From Bacteroidetes bacterium RIFCSPLOWO2_12_FULL_35_15 (GTDB lineage: Bacteria > Bacteroidota > Bacteroidia > 2-12-FULL-35-15): a DNA stretch of 64,000 bases. The notes below the pieces were generated by a model, which saw nothing but the letters and a program-made list of their open reading frames with translations, had not been told where the DNA came from and did no database searches. Position numbers and translations under genes: made by a program. Where the stretch lies: assembly GCA_001769385.1 (NCBI GenBank), contig MEPB01000033.1, positions 1-64,000 on the forward strand, in the 5' to 3' direction. This document shows positions 2,846 through 60,502 of this stretch, piece after piece (positions within the stretch are counted from its first letter, which is position 1; the number at the start of each line of letters is the position of its first letter).

Positions 2846-3772
2846 CTATAATCCATCCAACAATGCTGTCAATGCAGCATCTGAAGTAGCACTCATTGTC
2901 ACATCAACTGAAGCACTTGCATTTACAGTTTGTGTTTGATAAAAACTATATAACTGATTACTTCCATCTACTGCAATGGCAATAATTTTTACTGCAGAAC
3001 CATTTGGTATTTGTCCTGAAGCCAAATTATAAACCTGCATCACTGTTTTTGTATTTGGGAAATAAACAAATATGGCCACATTGGTGAGATCATCAACTGT
3101 TGAGGTAAAAGACAAAGTGGAATTAGAAGTACTGCCCGCCTGCAATCCGCAATTGATCCATCCTAGCTTAGCGATAGAAGCCGAATAACCATAAGTGGTA
3201 GTAGAAAACACCGGATTAAGAGTTGTTGTTACTCCTAATGATGCCGGATTATCTGTCCAATCAGGTAGCCCACTTGTTTGAAAACCATAAAAAACACGCA
3301 TATTATTTTGAGGTGCAACATTTGGCATTTCTATTTGAGCCATGCAAGGATCCGGCTTTAATAACAGCTCTGTTCCATCTTTAAATGCACGTAATCTTAT
3401 TTCACCATCTGTTTTTAGAATTCCGGAAGTAGCAACTGTTGGCATTTGATAATAGATCATATCTTTTGGTTTGTACAACTCAACCAATTTGAGAGTATAG
3501 GGCCATGTAACACTGTCGCCATTCGGGAACATCAAACATTCTTTGCCTCCCCAGATTTTTGTTCCCTGATTTCCAATGATTGGCCCCGATCCCGATGTAT
3601 CAATTATAAACTCCTGCTCTTCTTGTTTCTTACTATCCAAATAGGTGTTTGGAGAATTGTAAGAATTCAACTGCCTGTCTTCAATTCTATCTTTCGAACA
3701 ACTGTAATAAAAAACAGAAGACAAAAAAATCAGTAAAAATGACACTTTGGAAACGATGTTTAATTTTTTCAT
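2846..3772 (-). CDS. Hypothetical lipoprotein
   Basis: A 308-residue protein with a classical Bacteroidota lipoprotein signal: a hydrophobic stretch followed by a lipobox ending in YYSC at about residue 25, then a polar linker (SKDRIEDRQ). It is therefore probably outer-membrane anchored. The mature part has a segment rich in glycine and aromatic residues (GTKIWGGKECLMFPNGDSV) and a C-terminal half rich in Ser, Thr and Ala that looks like beta-sandwich sequence. I do not recognise the family and see no enzyme motif. The neighbouring minus-strand gene at 3847 is probably transcribed separately or just ahead of it. Confidence 0.75.
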   Translation of the reverse strand: MKKLNIVSKVSFLLIFLSSVFYYSCSKDRIEDRQLNSYNSPNTYLDSKKQEEQEFIIDTSGSGPIIGNQGTKIWGGKECLMFPNGDSVTWPYTLKLVELYKPKDMIYYQMPTVATSGILKTDGEIRLRAFKDGTELLLKPDPCMAQIEMPNVAPQNNMRVFYGFQTSGLPDWTDNPASLGVTTTLNPVFSTTTYGYSASIAKLGWINCGLQAGSTSNSTLSFTSTVDDLTNVAIFVYFPNTKTVMQVYNLASGQIPNGSAVKIIAIAVDGSNQLYSFYQTQTVNASASVDVTMSATSDAALTALLDGL

Positions 3773-13225: not shown

Positions 13226-14305
13226 CTACATGTAAATTGGACAAACGCGTTTTTTAGCAACAAAGGGTGCAACTTTTTTGAATATATATATTATCGAAAT
13301 TTCAAATCCACCACGATGATTTGTTGCTGCTATTAATTTAGATGTATTTACATCATAACTTATTCCCACATTAAAATTGCGATAATCCAAGTTTGCAACA
13401 ACAATAAAAGCATCTTTCAAACGATAAAAACCACCCAATGAAATTGCTGTTGGAATACCATTAACAGGTTTTAAATAATATTTTCCAAACAAGCCAACAA
13501 CCGTTTCATTAAACTTGCCTTGGCGCTGATATAAAATTGTTGGAACAACATCTAATTGTGCTGCAACGGGGAATTCAGCCATCCCACTGAATGTTGTCTT
13601 AATATCCAATTTAATATCTCTGTTAGTAAAAAAAGATTGTTTGGGTCTGTTTAAATGAAAAGCAGAGAAACCGATATTTATTTGGGTTCTCTGTGTTTTT
13701 CTCCACAGGTAAGCCATGCCGGCACCCAGATCAAAATAAGTTATGCGGGTTGTATTGAAATTTTCTCCACTTCCTAAAACCGCATTATAATGATCGCCAT
13801 CGTATTGATTATCGAAAGTTAACGCGTTCACATTAAAACTTTTTGTGGTCACACCTGGCTGAACAGCAATAGAAATAAAATTTGTAGAATCATTGCTTAA
13901 TTTTTTTATATACGAAGCAGATGCAAAAACCTGTGTTGTTGAAAATTTTGAATCGCCTGCTTTATCTGTGTTTACTATCATTCCAAGCGCAGGAACATCA
14001 TTTTTCAATTTCGTTTTTAAGCGAGTATCTGTTGCTAAGGAATAAGTAGTATAAGGAACCGGAATTACAGACCATTGACTTCTATGATTACCCACGAAGC
14101 GCCAATCGCCATCAAACATACCGGTTTGAGCAGGATTCAGATTTTGCGGGGATGCATTGAATTGGGAAAAATGAATGTCCTGCGCAAAGACCTCTCCCCC
14201 AGCGCCTTTCCAAAGAAAAAAAAGAAATAACAAAACACCTCTCCCTAACTCTCTCCACAGGAGAGGGAAGTGGTACTTGCTAATTTTATCTTTTATTTTT
14301 TTCAT
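13226..14305 (-). CDS. PorP/SprF-family T9SS outer-membrane protein
   Basis: A 359-residue protein of the PorP/SprF family, which accompanies T9SS-secreted gliding adhesins. The mature start is typical (AQDIHFSQFNASPQNLNPAQTG), followed by barrel strands (WSVIPVPYTTYSLATDT, GAGMAYLWR, FSAFHLNRPKQSFF). The N-terminus is odd. Residues from about 12 to 41, including the hydrophobic core of the signal peptide (LLWRELGRGVLLFLFFLWKG), are encoded by two copies of the palindromic CTCTCC-type repeat. The gene lies just upstream of the PorE-like gene and just downstream of the giant gliding-type protein, which is the usual context. Spacing to the PorE-like protein is short, so they are probably one transcript. 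Confidence 0.9.
   Translation of the reverse strand: MKKIKDKISKYHFPLLWRELGRGVLLFLFFLWKGAGGEVFAQDIHFSQFNASPQNLNPAQTGMFDGDWRFVGNHRSQWSVIPVPYTTYSLATDTRLKTKLKNDVPALGMIVNTDKAGDSKFSTTQVFASASYIKKLSNDSTNFISIAVQPGVTTKSFNVNALTFDNQYDGDHYNAVLGSGENFNTTRITYFDLGAGMAYLWRKTQRTQINIGFSAFHLNRPKQSFFTNRDIKLDIKTTFSGMAEFPVAAQLDVVPTILYQRQGKFNETVVGLFGKYYLKPVNGIPTAISLGGFYRLKDAFIVVANLDYRNFNVGISYDVNTSKLIAATNHRGGFEISIIYIFKKVAPFVAKKRVCPIYM
14191..14270. repeat. Two C-rich REP-like palindromes in the PorP signal peptide
   Basis: One truncated unit (cctctcccccagcgcctttc, from 14191) and one full unit at 14238-14270 with stem CTCTCC (14251-14256), loop ACA, stem GGAGAG. They lie inside the 5' part of the PorP coding sequence and are read in frame. 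Confidence 0.75.
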
Positions 14306-14330
14306 TACACTTTATTCTTTTACGTTTCGC

Positions 14331-14364
14331 CTGCTCTCCTGTGGAGAGGAGATTAAAAGGAGAA
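14331..14364. repeat. Inverted copy of the CTCTCC/GGAGAG palindrome
   Basis: Stem CTCTCC (14334-14339), loop TGT, stem GGAGAG (14343-14348), followed by a GGAGA motif. It is the inverted partner of the copy at 14238-14270. The two flank the PorP start codon and sit before the next gene upstream. Confidence 0.75.
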
Positions 14365-48816: not shown

Positions 48817-49728
48817 ATGGAATTACTTACACCACAAAATTTTACTGATTACGAATTAATTGATGTCGGCCATTTTGAAAAGCTCGAACGATTTGGTCAA
48901 TACATTACCATTCGTCCGGAACCACAAGCTGTTTGGGATAAAACGCTTAGCAATGCCGAATGGGAAAAATTGGCACATGTAAAATTTATTTCCCGTTCAA
49001 GCTCTTCAGGAGAATGGAAAAAATTAAAACCAATGCCCGATCAATGGAAGATTAGTTATCCTGTGGTCGGAAATCAAGAAACACAAATCTGTTTCCGTTT
49101 AGGATTAACTTCTTTTAAACATGTTGGAATATTTCCGGAACAAGCAAGTAATTGGGATTATATTTTCGAAACGATTAAAGCAATGAGCGCTGACTCATCT
49201 CCCTCTGGGGGAGGTCGGGAGGGGGGGCCGAAGGTATTGAATTTATTTGCCTATACCGGTGGGGCATCATTAGCAGCAAAAGCTGCCGGAGCTGATGTTA
49301 CACATGTTGATTCGATAAAACAAGTTGTTAGCTGGAGTAAAGAAAACATGGATCTTTCCAACTTAACTAACATTCGTTGGGTGGTGGAAGATGCATTAAA
49401 ATTTGTAAAACGTGAAGAGAAACGTGGCAACAAATACAATGGAATTATACTTGATCCTCCTGCATTTGGGCACGGACCAAGTGGTGAAAAATGGAAGCTC
49501 GAAGACAATATCAACGAAATGATAAAAGGTGTTTTAAATTTATTGGATGATAAAGAACACTTCTTAATTCTGAATGCATACTCATTAGGATTTTCATCCC
49601 TCATCATCGAAAATTTACTGAAAGAAAAAGCCGGAAAAAATTTACATGTGGGCGAATTATACTTACAAGCAACCAAAGGAAGCAAGCTGCCGTTGGGTGT
49701 TTTCGGGAGGTTCAGGAATTTTTTATAA
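48817..49728 (+). CDS. Class I SAM-dependent (RlmI-type) rRNA methyltransferase
   Basis: A 303-residue protein of the RlmI/RlmK type, which uses SAM to methylate a cytosine in 23S rRNA; the exact site is unknown. The SAM motif is LNLFAYTGGASLAAKAAG (about 145-162), a GADVTHVD acidic loop follows, and the catalytic-site motif is IILDPPAFGHGPSG (about 210). Residues SADSSPSGGGREGGP, just before the SAM motif, are encoded by a C/G-rich palindrome of the REP-like family and interrupt the normal sequence in frame. The last 20 codons are repeated in diverged form at 50343-50405, beyond the DUF559 cassette. Confidence 0.9.
   Translation: MELLTPQNFTDYELIDVGHFEKLERFGQYITIRPEPQAVWDKTLSNAEWEKLAHVKFISRSSSSGEWKKLKPMPDQWKISYPVVGNQETQICFRLGLTSFKHVGIFPEQASNWDYIFETIKAMSADSSPSGGGREGGPKVLNLFAYTGGASLAAKAAGADVTHVDSIKQVVSWSKENMDLSNLTNIRWVVEDALKFVKREEKRGNKYNGIILDPPAFGHGPSGEKWKLEDNINEMIKGVLNLLDDKEHFLILNAYSLGFSSLIIENLLKEKAGKNLHVGELYLQATKGSKLPLGVFGRFRNFL
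49196..49230. repeat. REP-like palindrome inside the methyltransferase
   Basis: The sequence ctccctctgggggagg plus a downstream GGGAGGGGGGG run matches the inverted form of the C-rich palindrome family found at 49783 and 49860. It is kept in frame and encodes the Gly/Ser-rich insertion. Confidence 0.7.
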
Positions 49729-49782
49729 AGCCTACTAATTTAACTTGTTCATTCAGTTACCCGAATGATAGTTTGTACGCTG

Positions 49783-49812
49783 TCCCCCTCTTGAGGGGGA
49801 TTAAGGGGGAGG
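49783..49812. repeat. REP-like palindrome, left of the DUF559 gene
   Basis: Stem TCCCCCTC (49783-49790) and GAGGGGGA (49793-49800), followed by TTAAGGGGGAGG. The orientation is inverted relative to the copy at 49860. Confidence 0.8.
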
Positions 49813-49859
49813 CATCACGAATTAAACTCTCTGCTAATAAATATTGAAAATAAACAAAA

Positions 49860-49887
49860 CCTCCCCCTGCCCCCTCGGAGAGGGGGA
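49860..49887. repeat. REP-like palindrome before the DUF559 start
   Basis: CCTCCCCCTG is followed by a hairpin with stem CCCCCTC (49870-49876), loop GGA and stem GAGGGGG (49880-49886). It ends seven bases before the start codon, so it lies in the ribosome-binding region. Confidence 0.8.
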
Positions 49888-49894
49888 CAAAAAA

Positions 49895-50329
49895 ATGAAA
49901 GCAACAAAAGAAAACCATAATTTATATAACAGAACACTTCAGCCATTTGCACACGAAAATCGTTACCAAATGACTAAAGCAGAAGCTTGTTTGTGGAAAT
50001 ATGTGTTAAGGGCAAAAATGATGTGTGGTTATACATTTAACCGGCAACGTCCTGTTTTAAATTACATTGCCGACTTTATGTCTAAAGAATTAAAATTAAT
50101 AATTGAGGTTGATGGATACTCTCATACGTTGGATGAAGTGATTGAAAAGGATATTATTAAACAAAGAAATTTGGAAAATGCAGGATTTAAAGTAGTCCGA
50201 TTTTCGGATGAAGAGGTATTGAAAAGAATCGAAGATGTGAGAAGATCACTGGAGATAATAATAGAAGAATTAAAAAAGCTGGATAACCTCCCCTGCCCCC
50301 TCCAGATGGGGATAAAAGAAGGGGGATGA
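49895..50329 (+). CDS. DUF559-type (Vsr-like fold) endonuclease
   Basis: A 144-residue protein of the DUF559 'endonuclease domain-containing' family, related in fold to very-short-patch repair endonucleases. The ATG at 49895 is chosen because earlier codons (from 49844) are read from the palindrome. Key features are MTKAEACLWKYVLRAKM (26-42), FNRQRPVLNYIADF (48-61) with D60, LKLIIEVDGYSH (66-77) with E71/D73, and FKVVRFSDEEVL (98-109). The last 15 residues (NLPCPLQMGIKEGG) are encoded by another palindrome copy. The gene is alone, flanked on both sides by REP-like palindromes. An inserted cassette is inferred. The substrate is unknown. Confidence 0.85.
   Translation: MKATKENHNLYNRTLQPFAHENRYQMTKAEACLWKYVLRAKMMCGYTFNRQRPVLNYIADFMSKELKLIIEVDGYSHTLDEVIEKDIIKQRNLENAGFKVVRFSDEEVLKRIEDVRRSLEIIIEELKKLDNLPCPLQMGIKEGG
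50287..50326. repeat. REP-like palindrome at the 3' end of the DUF559 gene
   Basis: cctcccctgccccctccaga is followed by TGGGGATAAAAGAAGGGGGA. The order and spacing match the copy at 49860, with the stem partly degraded. It supplies the C-terminal residues and ends near the stop codon. Confidence 0.75.
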
Positions 50330-50342
50330 TGACGCTGGTAAA

Positions 50343-50405
50343 ATGAGAGCTACCAAAAGAAGTAAACGGCCACTTGGTGTTTTCGGGAGGTTCAAAAACT
50401 TTTAA
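50343..50405 (+). pseudogene. Relic or second copy of the methyltransferase 3' end
   Basis: The frame encodes RATKRSKRPLGVFGRFKNF and then a stop. The methyltransferase ends with QATKGSKLPLGVFGRFRNFL. The DNA differs mostly at silent positions, except for a perfectly kept core gtgttttcgggaggttca. This fits the end of a homologous gene left behind by a cassette that brought its own 3' end. There is no start or SAM domain here. Confidence 0.7.
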
Positions 50406-50750
50406 TTATTTTTTCTTAACAGCCGTTTTCGCTGGTGTTTTTTTGATTGGCGCTTTTTTAGTTCCGCCCTTGGCGATAACAGTATATGGATAATTCATGC
50501 GAACAAATTGCGTGAACTGAGCCTTAGTGGCATGTGCAGCAACCTCCGCCCCTTTTGTTTTATCAACCGAGATCATTTTTGAAAACTGTCCTATCTCCTG
50601 CATGGAGTTTACCTTGAATTTAAAATAAACAACATTGTTTGTTTTAAATAACTTGTTAATGGCTTGCAACTGTTGCGGTGACTGCGCCAAACCCTTCGTT
50701 GAAAAAAAGAAGAATGCAACGATGACAAGTAATGAGAATGTTTTTTTCAT
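50406..50750 (-). CDS. Small secreted protein resembling a stand-alone propeptide
   Basis: A 114-residue protein with a signal peptide (MKKTFSLLVIVAFFFFSTKGLAQ). Residues 24-92 align with the N-terminal propeptide-like part of the carboxypeptidase in the preceding gene (KLFKTNNVVYFKFKVNSMQE versus KLFKKHGEVYFKFSITSKAE; ISVDKTKGAEVAAHA versus ISIDNVKNNEVVAYA). The last 20 residues are lysine-rich (KKAPIKKTPAKTAVKKK). It starts 13 bases after the carboxypeptidase stop, so they are co-transcribed. A role as inhibitor or chaperone in trans is inferred. No similarity to an enzyme. Confidence 0.72.
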   Translation of the reverse strand: MKKTFSLLVIVAFFFFSTKGLAQSPQQLQAINKLFKTNNVVYFKFKVNSMQEIGQFSKMISVDKTKGAEVAAHATKAQFTQFVRMNYPYTVIAKGGTKKAPIKKTPAKTAVKKK

Positions 50751-60471: not shown

Positions 60472-60502
60472 ATGTCTCCATTTGGAAGTGGGCAGGGGGA
60501 GG
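60472..60502. repeat. Decayed copy of the C-rich REP-like palindrome
   Basis: Read on the minus strand it begins CCTCCCCCTGCCC, the same core as at 49860, and continues CACTTCCAAATGGAGACA, a degraded version of the stem. It lies after the epimerase gene. Confidence 0.65.

Follow-up and report, generated by a model that had tools for sequence, protein, structure and literature searches.

Organization of the locus

Within the window (the whole 64,000-nucleotide stretch of Bacteroidetes bacterium RIFCSPLOWO2_12_FULL_35_15 DNA analyzed here), a gene for a SAM-dependent methyltransferase is followed by a short cassette, behind which the 3' end of the methyltransferase gene occurs a second time (Table 1). 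The two ends form a direct repeat in the same orientation, with a spacing of 680 bp and 47 of 59 positions identical; when both strands of the 64-kb window were searched with the left copy, the next best match reached only 31/59. The left end reads QATKGSKLPLGVFGRFRNFL and the right-hand end MRATKRSKRPLGVFGRFKNF, each followed by a stop. As stated in a preliminary description of this DNA, the differences between them are mainly silent, though not wholly so, the exceptions being G>R, L>R, and R>K.

The gene in the cassette encodes a DUF559 protein (PF04480; E value, 8.9e-28; 96.8 bits against a curated cutoff of 20.6), and ATG at 49895 is its likely start, the listed TTG being disfavored. Apart from DUF559, the Pfam scan of the cassette returned only a sub-threshold match to MTES_1575; no DDE, tyrosine, serine, or HUH transposase was found in it, so that the cassette does not qualify as an insertion sequence. 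The hairpins of palindromes P1 and P2 (49870-49886 in P2, preceded by its tail) are perfect, whereas the core of P3 (50287-50312) is imperfect and covers the last codons of DUF559. No Rfam family scored above its gathering score (best, 17.2 bits against 39). The palindrome inside the methyltransferase is translated as ..SADSSPSGGGREGGPK.., where relatives have a shorter ..NTPQPK.. instead. Thus, the preliminary description of a DUF559 cassette lying between C/G-rich palindromes at a doubled methyltransferase end was borne out.

Table 1 Features located in the window
Feature	Coordinates	Strand	Remarks
SAM-dependent methyltransferase (PF10672)	48817..49728	+	Pfam match; host gene with duplicated 3' end
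Lone palindrome	49189..49230 (about)	+	In frame within the methyltransferase; no DUF559; absent from orthologs
59-nt direct duplication, left copy	49668..49726	+	C terminus now in use
Palindrome P1	49783..49813	-	Hairpin 49783-49800, then tail TTAAGGGGGAGGC
Palindrome P2	49860..49887	+	Tail CCTCCCCCTG, then hairpin CCCCCTCGGAGAGGGGG
DUF559 nuclease gene	49895..50329	+	144 aa; predicted EDxHD/Vsr fold; conserved E71, D73, H77, D86
Palindrome P3	50287..50327	+	Imperfect; overlaps the DUF559 3' end
59-nt direct duplication, right copy	50348..50406	+	Original gene end, joined to ancestral downstream DNA
Second pair of pyrimidine-arm palindromes	14238..14360	not assigned	Same general kind; without DUF559

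The two palindromes of the second pair are ∼70 bp apart, the first one with a tail, and sit at the 5' end of a minus-strand gene (13226-14305) that we take, from its sequence alone, to be PorP/SprF-like; they are translated in its N-terminal signal region (..LLWRELGRG..LWKGAGGE..). A degenerate palindrome with a tail is also found between genes at 60476-60502. In genome G000, contigs C21, C28, C45, C48, C55, C91, C103, and C110 carry a CATCCCCCTGCCCCCTT-type sequence within their first 120 bases; because several contigs start in this way, a larger repeat containing this sequence probably interrupts the assembly.

Fold and family of the DUF559 protein

The structure predicted for DUF559 (pLDDT, 83) matches NGO0050 (PDB 3hrl; Z score, 14.9), the homing endonuclease I-Bth0305I (3r3p; Z score, 11.3), Vsr (Z score, 10.1), and TnsA (Z score, 7.5, a value below 8 that may reflect a shared arrangement only). 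Sequence profiles likewise matched 3hrl (E value, 2.5e-31) and 3r3p (E value, 1.7e-7), and the E, D, H, and D residues are invariant across 16 diverse DUF559 copies. The predicted fold is, therefore, that of the EDxHD homing endonucleases and Vsr. The Vsr profile itself (PF03852) had no match in the window genome, so that the protein does not classify as a Vsr repair endonuclease. Earlier work has related E. coli YcjD to Vsr and the PD-(D/E)XK superfamily (PMC1189080) and has placed a cyanobacterial DUF559 gene in the EDxHD family (PMC9403480).

DUF559 genes are commonly flanked by pyrimidine-arm palindromes

The preliminary description had left it to be checked whether palindromes accompany DUF559 genes in general, and they do. 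All four DUF559 genes of the window genome have C/G-rich palindromes on both sides (as judged by eye). Among 57 copies from the genus with full flanks, a GC-rich hairpin lies within 300 bp upstream of 45 and downstream of 47, against an expectation of 0.044 per 300 bp. In a second set, 101 copies drawn from Bacteroidota, Patescibacteria, Nitrospinota, Chlorobiota, Cyanobacteriota, and a single Sulfopaludibacter-labeled record, the corresponding numbers are 72 and 70 (expected, 0.038 per 300 bp); the profile for the contig scan was built on four DUF559 sequences. Pyrimidine-arm palindromes within 300 bp on both sides were found at 95 of the 158 DUF559 copies (60%) but at only 1 of 233 small ORFs (0.4%) from the same loci (Fisher P = 1e-46, which overstates independence because copies within the genus are related, although the pattern repeats across phyla). 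About 13% of the copies have no pyrimidine palindrome within this distance.

The hairpins near DUF559 are strongly polarized: the 5' arm is pyrimidine in 86% and purine in 0.8%, compared with 26% pyrimidine in the background. Within a given copy, a 6-mer is common to the left and the right arm in 83% of cases (40% after shuffling), and the commonest tails are CACCCCTAA, CACCCCCGG, and TCCCCCTAG. Genomes of the genus with DUF559 contain a median of 24 palindromes and those without it 3 (P = 0.006), in counts that cover one exact pattern and only 5 genomes without DUF559.

The pairing of DUF559 with palindromes recurs in at least seven phyla. Pyrimidine-arm palindromes occupy both sides of the gene in Synechocystis, Pseudanabaena, Deinococcus psychrotolerans (within a paa operon), D. 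aetherius, Sphingomonas (within a transhydrogenase operon), and Sphingobium, and one side in Photobacterium, Neisseria, Sinorhizobium, and Azospirillum. The Deinococcus flanks consist, by eye, of long inverted repeats. The cyanobacterial and proteobacterial cases come from plasmid-collection records, some of them misfiled chromosomes.

The empty site and the flanking duplications

Relatives of the methyltransferase locus were sought among 59 genomes. A cassette-free relative (L024) has a single methyltransferase end and an empty site; the tandem methyltransferase pair that the preliminary description had raised as an alternative source of the two ends was looked for there and is rejected. In G031, whose methyltransferase is 89% identical, the one gene end is directly followed by the gene that lies 3' of the right-hand end in the window, and the right-hand end is hence the original one. 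G024 (methyltransferase, 93% identical) has the cassette with its palindromes and the left end only, and the downstream gene is absent; here, the methyltransferase body and the cassette are ∼90% identical to those of the window. The proposal that the element replaced the end of the gene and restored it with its own copy finds no support in that form: the right-hand end runs on into ancestral downstream DNA, and the duplications at other copies are varied.

Such duplications were surveyed around free-standing DUF559 copies, 23 of 117 of which are flanked by direct repeats of 18 to 148 bp, 83 to 100% identical and often touching the palindrome; the same was seen at 1 of 206 control ORFs and at none of 156 pairs of mismatched flanks. 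At L211, the arrangement is similar to that in the window, the duplicated stretch ending in TAG next to the palindrome. The window duplication itself scores 12.5, below the survey cutoff of 18, owing to its 80% identity and partial masking, and since this case was missed, the count of 23/117 is conservative. Because direct duplications of various host sequences also surround other cassettes, the doubled methyltransferase end would most simply be a long target duplication, a diverged member of the same class. Since the methyltransferase stop codon was among the 59 duplicated nucleotides, the insertion would have kept the gene intact and left its original end behind the cassette.

The doubled end alone could also stem from recombination in which the partner was a related methyltransferase allele already bearing the cassette, the native end being left over, in line with the earlier suggestion that the left end was imported. 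The last 54 nucleotides of the left end (49668-49721) do differ from the closest relative, G024, at 14 positions (40/54 identical), compared with ∼10% in the body and cassette, which leaves room for an import. However, 11 of 54 positions differ between the two ends, slightly fewer than separate either of them from any relative compared (at least 12/54); they have in common a residue found in no relative read (KxSK against KGNK or EGNK); and unrelated host DNA is likewise duplicated around other cassettes. We consider the import possible but unlikely; it would be compatible with a mobile cassette in any case.

In-frame copies inside housekeeping enzymes

DUF559 is present in 31 of 36 genus genomes, often within open frames of 440 to 1,417 aa. 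From their protein sequences, we take the hosts to be MetH (at two sites), LeuRS, acetyl-CoA synthetase (Acs), IleRS, a PaaZ-like protein, and a BadF-type ATPase. Elsewhere, restriction-modification enzymes also carry DUF559 in frame. The palindromes on both sides of these inserts are translated (LTPNPSPKERG ... SPLSFGEGxGG). No splicing element was seen: besides DUF559, the inserts comprise only palindrome codons and a short linker, and the frame is open on both sides, so that, judged by reading frame, they do not qualify as self-splicing inteins or group I introns.

Relatives show three states of the LeuRS and MetH sites, namely, empty, palindrome only, and palindrome-DUF559-palindrome. For example, G031 (empty) and G006 (filled), whose LeuRS is 97% identical, differ by the insert, and the closest empty LeuRS site (L120) contains no palindrome. 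Searches for a further full LeuRS in G006, G019, and G004 and for a further MetH in G000 gave no match; presumably, then, the enzymes function despite being interrupted. DUF559 itself is under purifying selection (dN/dS mostly 0.04 to 0.2). The structure predicted for a LeuRS-DUF559 fusion was unusable (pLDDT, 37).

In a tree of DUF559 (105 columns, quick method), all 26 copies from housekeeping enzymes of the main clade (MetH, LeuRS, Acs, IleRS, and PaaZ) group together (SH-aLRT, 90); L288, an IleRS copy, falls outside this clade, as do the BadF copies. The two MetH lineages are separate and have different palindrome types; one of them is sister to the LeuRS copies. To us, this pattern indicates movement from one host gene to another. 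In G006 and G032, type-II palindromes occur solely at both ends of the MetH insert, and type-II counts showed no rise in genomes carrying the type-II insert. Flanking duplications were found at 0 of 39 in-frame copies; one mechanism, therefore, may not cover both the in-frame and the free-standing life styles.

Two variants of the in-frame inserts were also observed. In G009 (C5:287502-287647), the two type-II palindromes of MetH are separated by only ∼109 bp; the DUF559 insert has probably lost an internal part and is still in frame. At L102 and L103 (G016 and G025), the peptide encoded by the palindrome (SIPLAPFSKGEGSDLNSENTATN..) is repeated in tandem behind DUF559, in frame with it.

A probable mobile nuclease with palindromic ends

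With a probability of roughly 0.7, the block in the window would be a copy of a compact mobile element that consists of a DUF559 nuclease and palindromic ends, and the lone palindromes found in these genomes would be short derivatives that lack the gene. This reading, which is drawn from comparison of sequences, is favored by the co-occurrence in many phyla, the matching left and right palindromes, presence and absence at the same sites, the in-frame spread, and the long duplications. It agrees with the preliminary description of DUF559 and its palindromes as a mobile unit, which the cassette-free relative and the general palindrome association support. The nuclease would nick the target, or else DNA within its own palindromes or close to them, and host repair would copy the unit into the nick or break; widely spaced nicks could yield duplications of tens to more than 100 bases. 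We infer a selfish nuclease with palindromic ends that might work like REP/RAYT or like a homing gene, and that by definition is fully neither.

The main rival makes the palindromes targets rather than ends. They would be dispersed repeats that existed beforehand and spread by other means, and copies of a DUF559 homing nuclease that targets them would end up between palindrome halves or duplicates. The palindrome-only LeuRS and MetH sites could indeed be targets instead of remnants, and the order duplication-palindrome-DUF559-duplication-palindrome at L211, L212, L217, and L277 also speaks for homing. Nevertheless, the palindrome-free state of the closest empty LeuRS site, the confinement of type-II palindromes to insert ends in two genomes, and the lower palindrome numbers of genomes without DUF559 argue against it, and we give it only a small chance. 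If instead DUF559 were a resident Vsr-like mismatch nuclease, the palindromes would be terminators or mRNA-stabilizing hairpins. The fold match to Vsr fits such a role, and a counterpoint to the mobile element comes from the best-studied DUF559 protein, Caulobacter VsrA, a Vsr-like nuclease that underlies a DNA damage response and has been proposed to act in mismatch (VSP) repair (PMC12907096). However, true Vsr genes from the same phylum have palindromes of the DUF559 type in 0 of 29 cases, the pyrimidine-arm bias and the tails are unlike terminators, and a terminator makes no sense where it is translated within LeuRS and MetH; the terminator reading was thus rejected, and a resident repair gene is very improbable.

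Mobilization of the palindromes by RAYT (Y1/HUH) transposases, with DUF559 as a passenger, would account for their REP-like look, and Y1 proteins are also present in 29 of the 36 genus genomes. Yet the palindromes next to RAYT genes of these genomes are of another kind (the DUF559 type at 1 of 23), palindrome number tracks RAYT number (0.31; P = 0.06) less than DUF559 number (0.50; P = 0.002), and G006, G011, G024, and G031 have DUF559 and palindromes without a Y1 match. RAYT was, accordingly, rejected as the mobilizer, and we regard this role as scarcely credible.

Relation to known systems

The mobile element proposed here resembles several known systems. With the EDxHD homing endonuclease I-Bth0305I, DUF559 shares the fold, sequence similarity, the conserved E..D..H..D residues, and residence in host genes at conserved sites, and as in homing, some alleles carry the gene at a site that is empty in others (LeuRS and MetH). 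Unlike in EDxHD homing, DUF559 comes without an intron or intein and is flanked by palindromes, and its in-frame copies are read as host protein; as far as we found, this unspliced palindromic anatomy is new to the family. The comparison with REP/RAYT (REPtron; TnpA-REP) made in the preliminary description is apt as an analogy: in both, a nuclease gene lies between short palindromes that also occur alone genome-wide, and a conserved tail precedes the palindrome. However, DUF559 is an EDxHD rather than a Y1/HUH enzyme, and Y1 genes lie elsewhere, with other palindromes; the tail is CCTCACCCCTAA-like and not a GTAG (or CGTC) tag; and pyrimidine-biased arms, in-frame insertion, and long flanking duplications set the element apart.

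Rickettsia palindromic elements (RPE) and other in-frame palindromic MITEs likewise place short palindromes in frame in many protein genes, but by their description, they differ from the present case, where a nuclease-carrying form lies between palindromes at the same sites; we know of no partner enzyme for RPE. TnsA of Tn7 has a related fold and is a PD-(D/E)XK-type nuclease that serves transposition, but it acts together with TnsB and TnsC, and no such partner was seen here. NGO0050, E. coli YcjD, and Caulobacter VsrA belong to the DUF559 family, ycjD lying beside the same palindrome type, but these proteins are known for a structure or a proposed repair role. In the open-licence literature, no paper linking DUF559 to palindromes was found, and an earlier description elsewhere is possible. 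Within that literature, the type of nuclease-palindrome element thus appears undescribed, whereas the enzyme class is known.

To our knowledge, no mobilizer is known for most short palindromic repeats outside REP/RAYT or for palindromes in frame in proteins. A specific nuclease partner would make the question of their mobilizer testable, even in E. coli K-12 through ycjD. A mobile nuclease that resides in a MetH or LeuRS loop without being spliced out would represent a new selfish-gene life style in essential genes, and the in-frame sites would form a natural catalogue of insertion-tolerant loops. DUF559, so far labeled as of “unknown function” or “repair,” gains a likely alternative role.

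Palindromes beside E. coli ycjD

We see an even chance that the idea extends further, such that DUF559/EDxHD nucleases would be the engines of pan-bacterial pyrimidine-arm palindromic repeats, the ycjD repeat included, and would form a class of autonomous mobile elements that insert in frame, unspliced, in essential enzymes. In E. coli, ycjD is a DUF559 gene, and behind it lies CCCTCACCCTAACCCTCTCCCCAGAGGGGCGAGGGG, which is close to the Bacteroidota CCTCACCCCTAACCCCTCTCC..GGAGAGGGG; the median count of this repeat is 16 per E. coli genome. At one E. coli locus (L325, ∼3283-3310 and 3390-3412), the 3' end of ycjD (GGAGACGGTGCTGGAGAATATTC) is repeated ∼110 bp downstream, with palindromes between the two copies and behind them.
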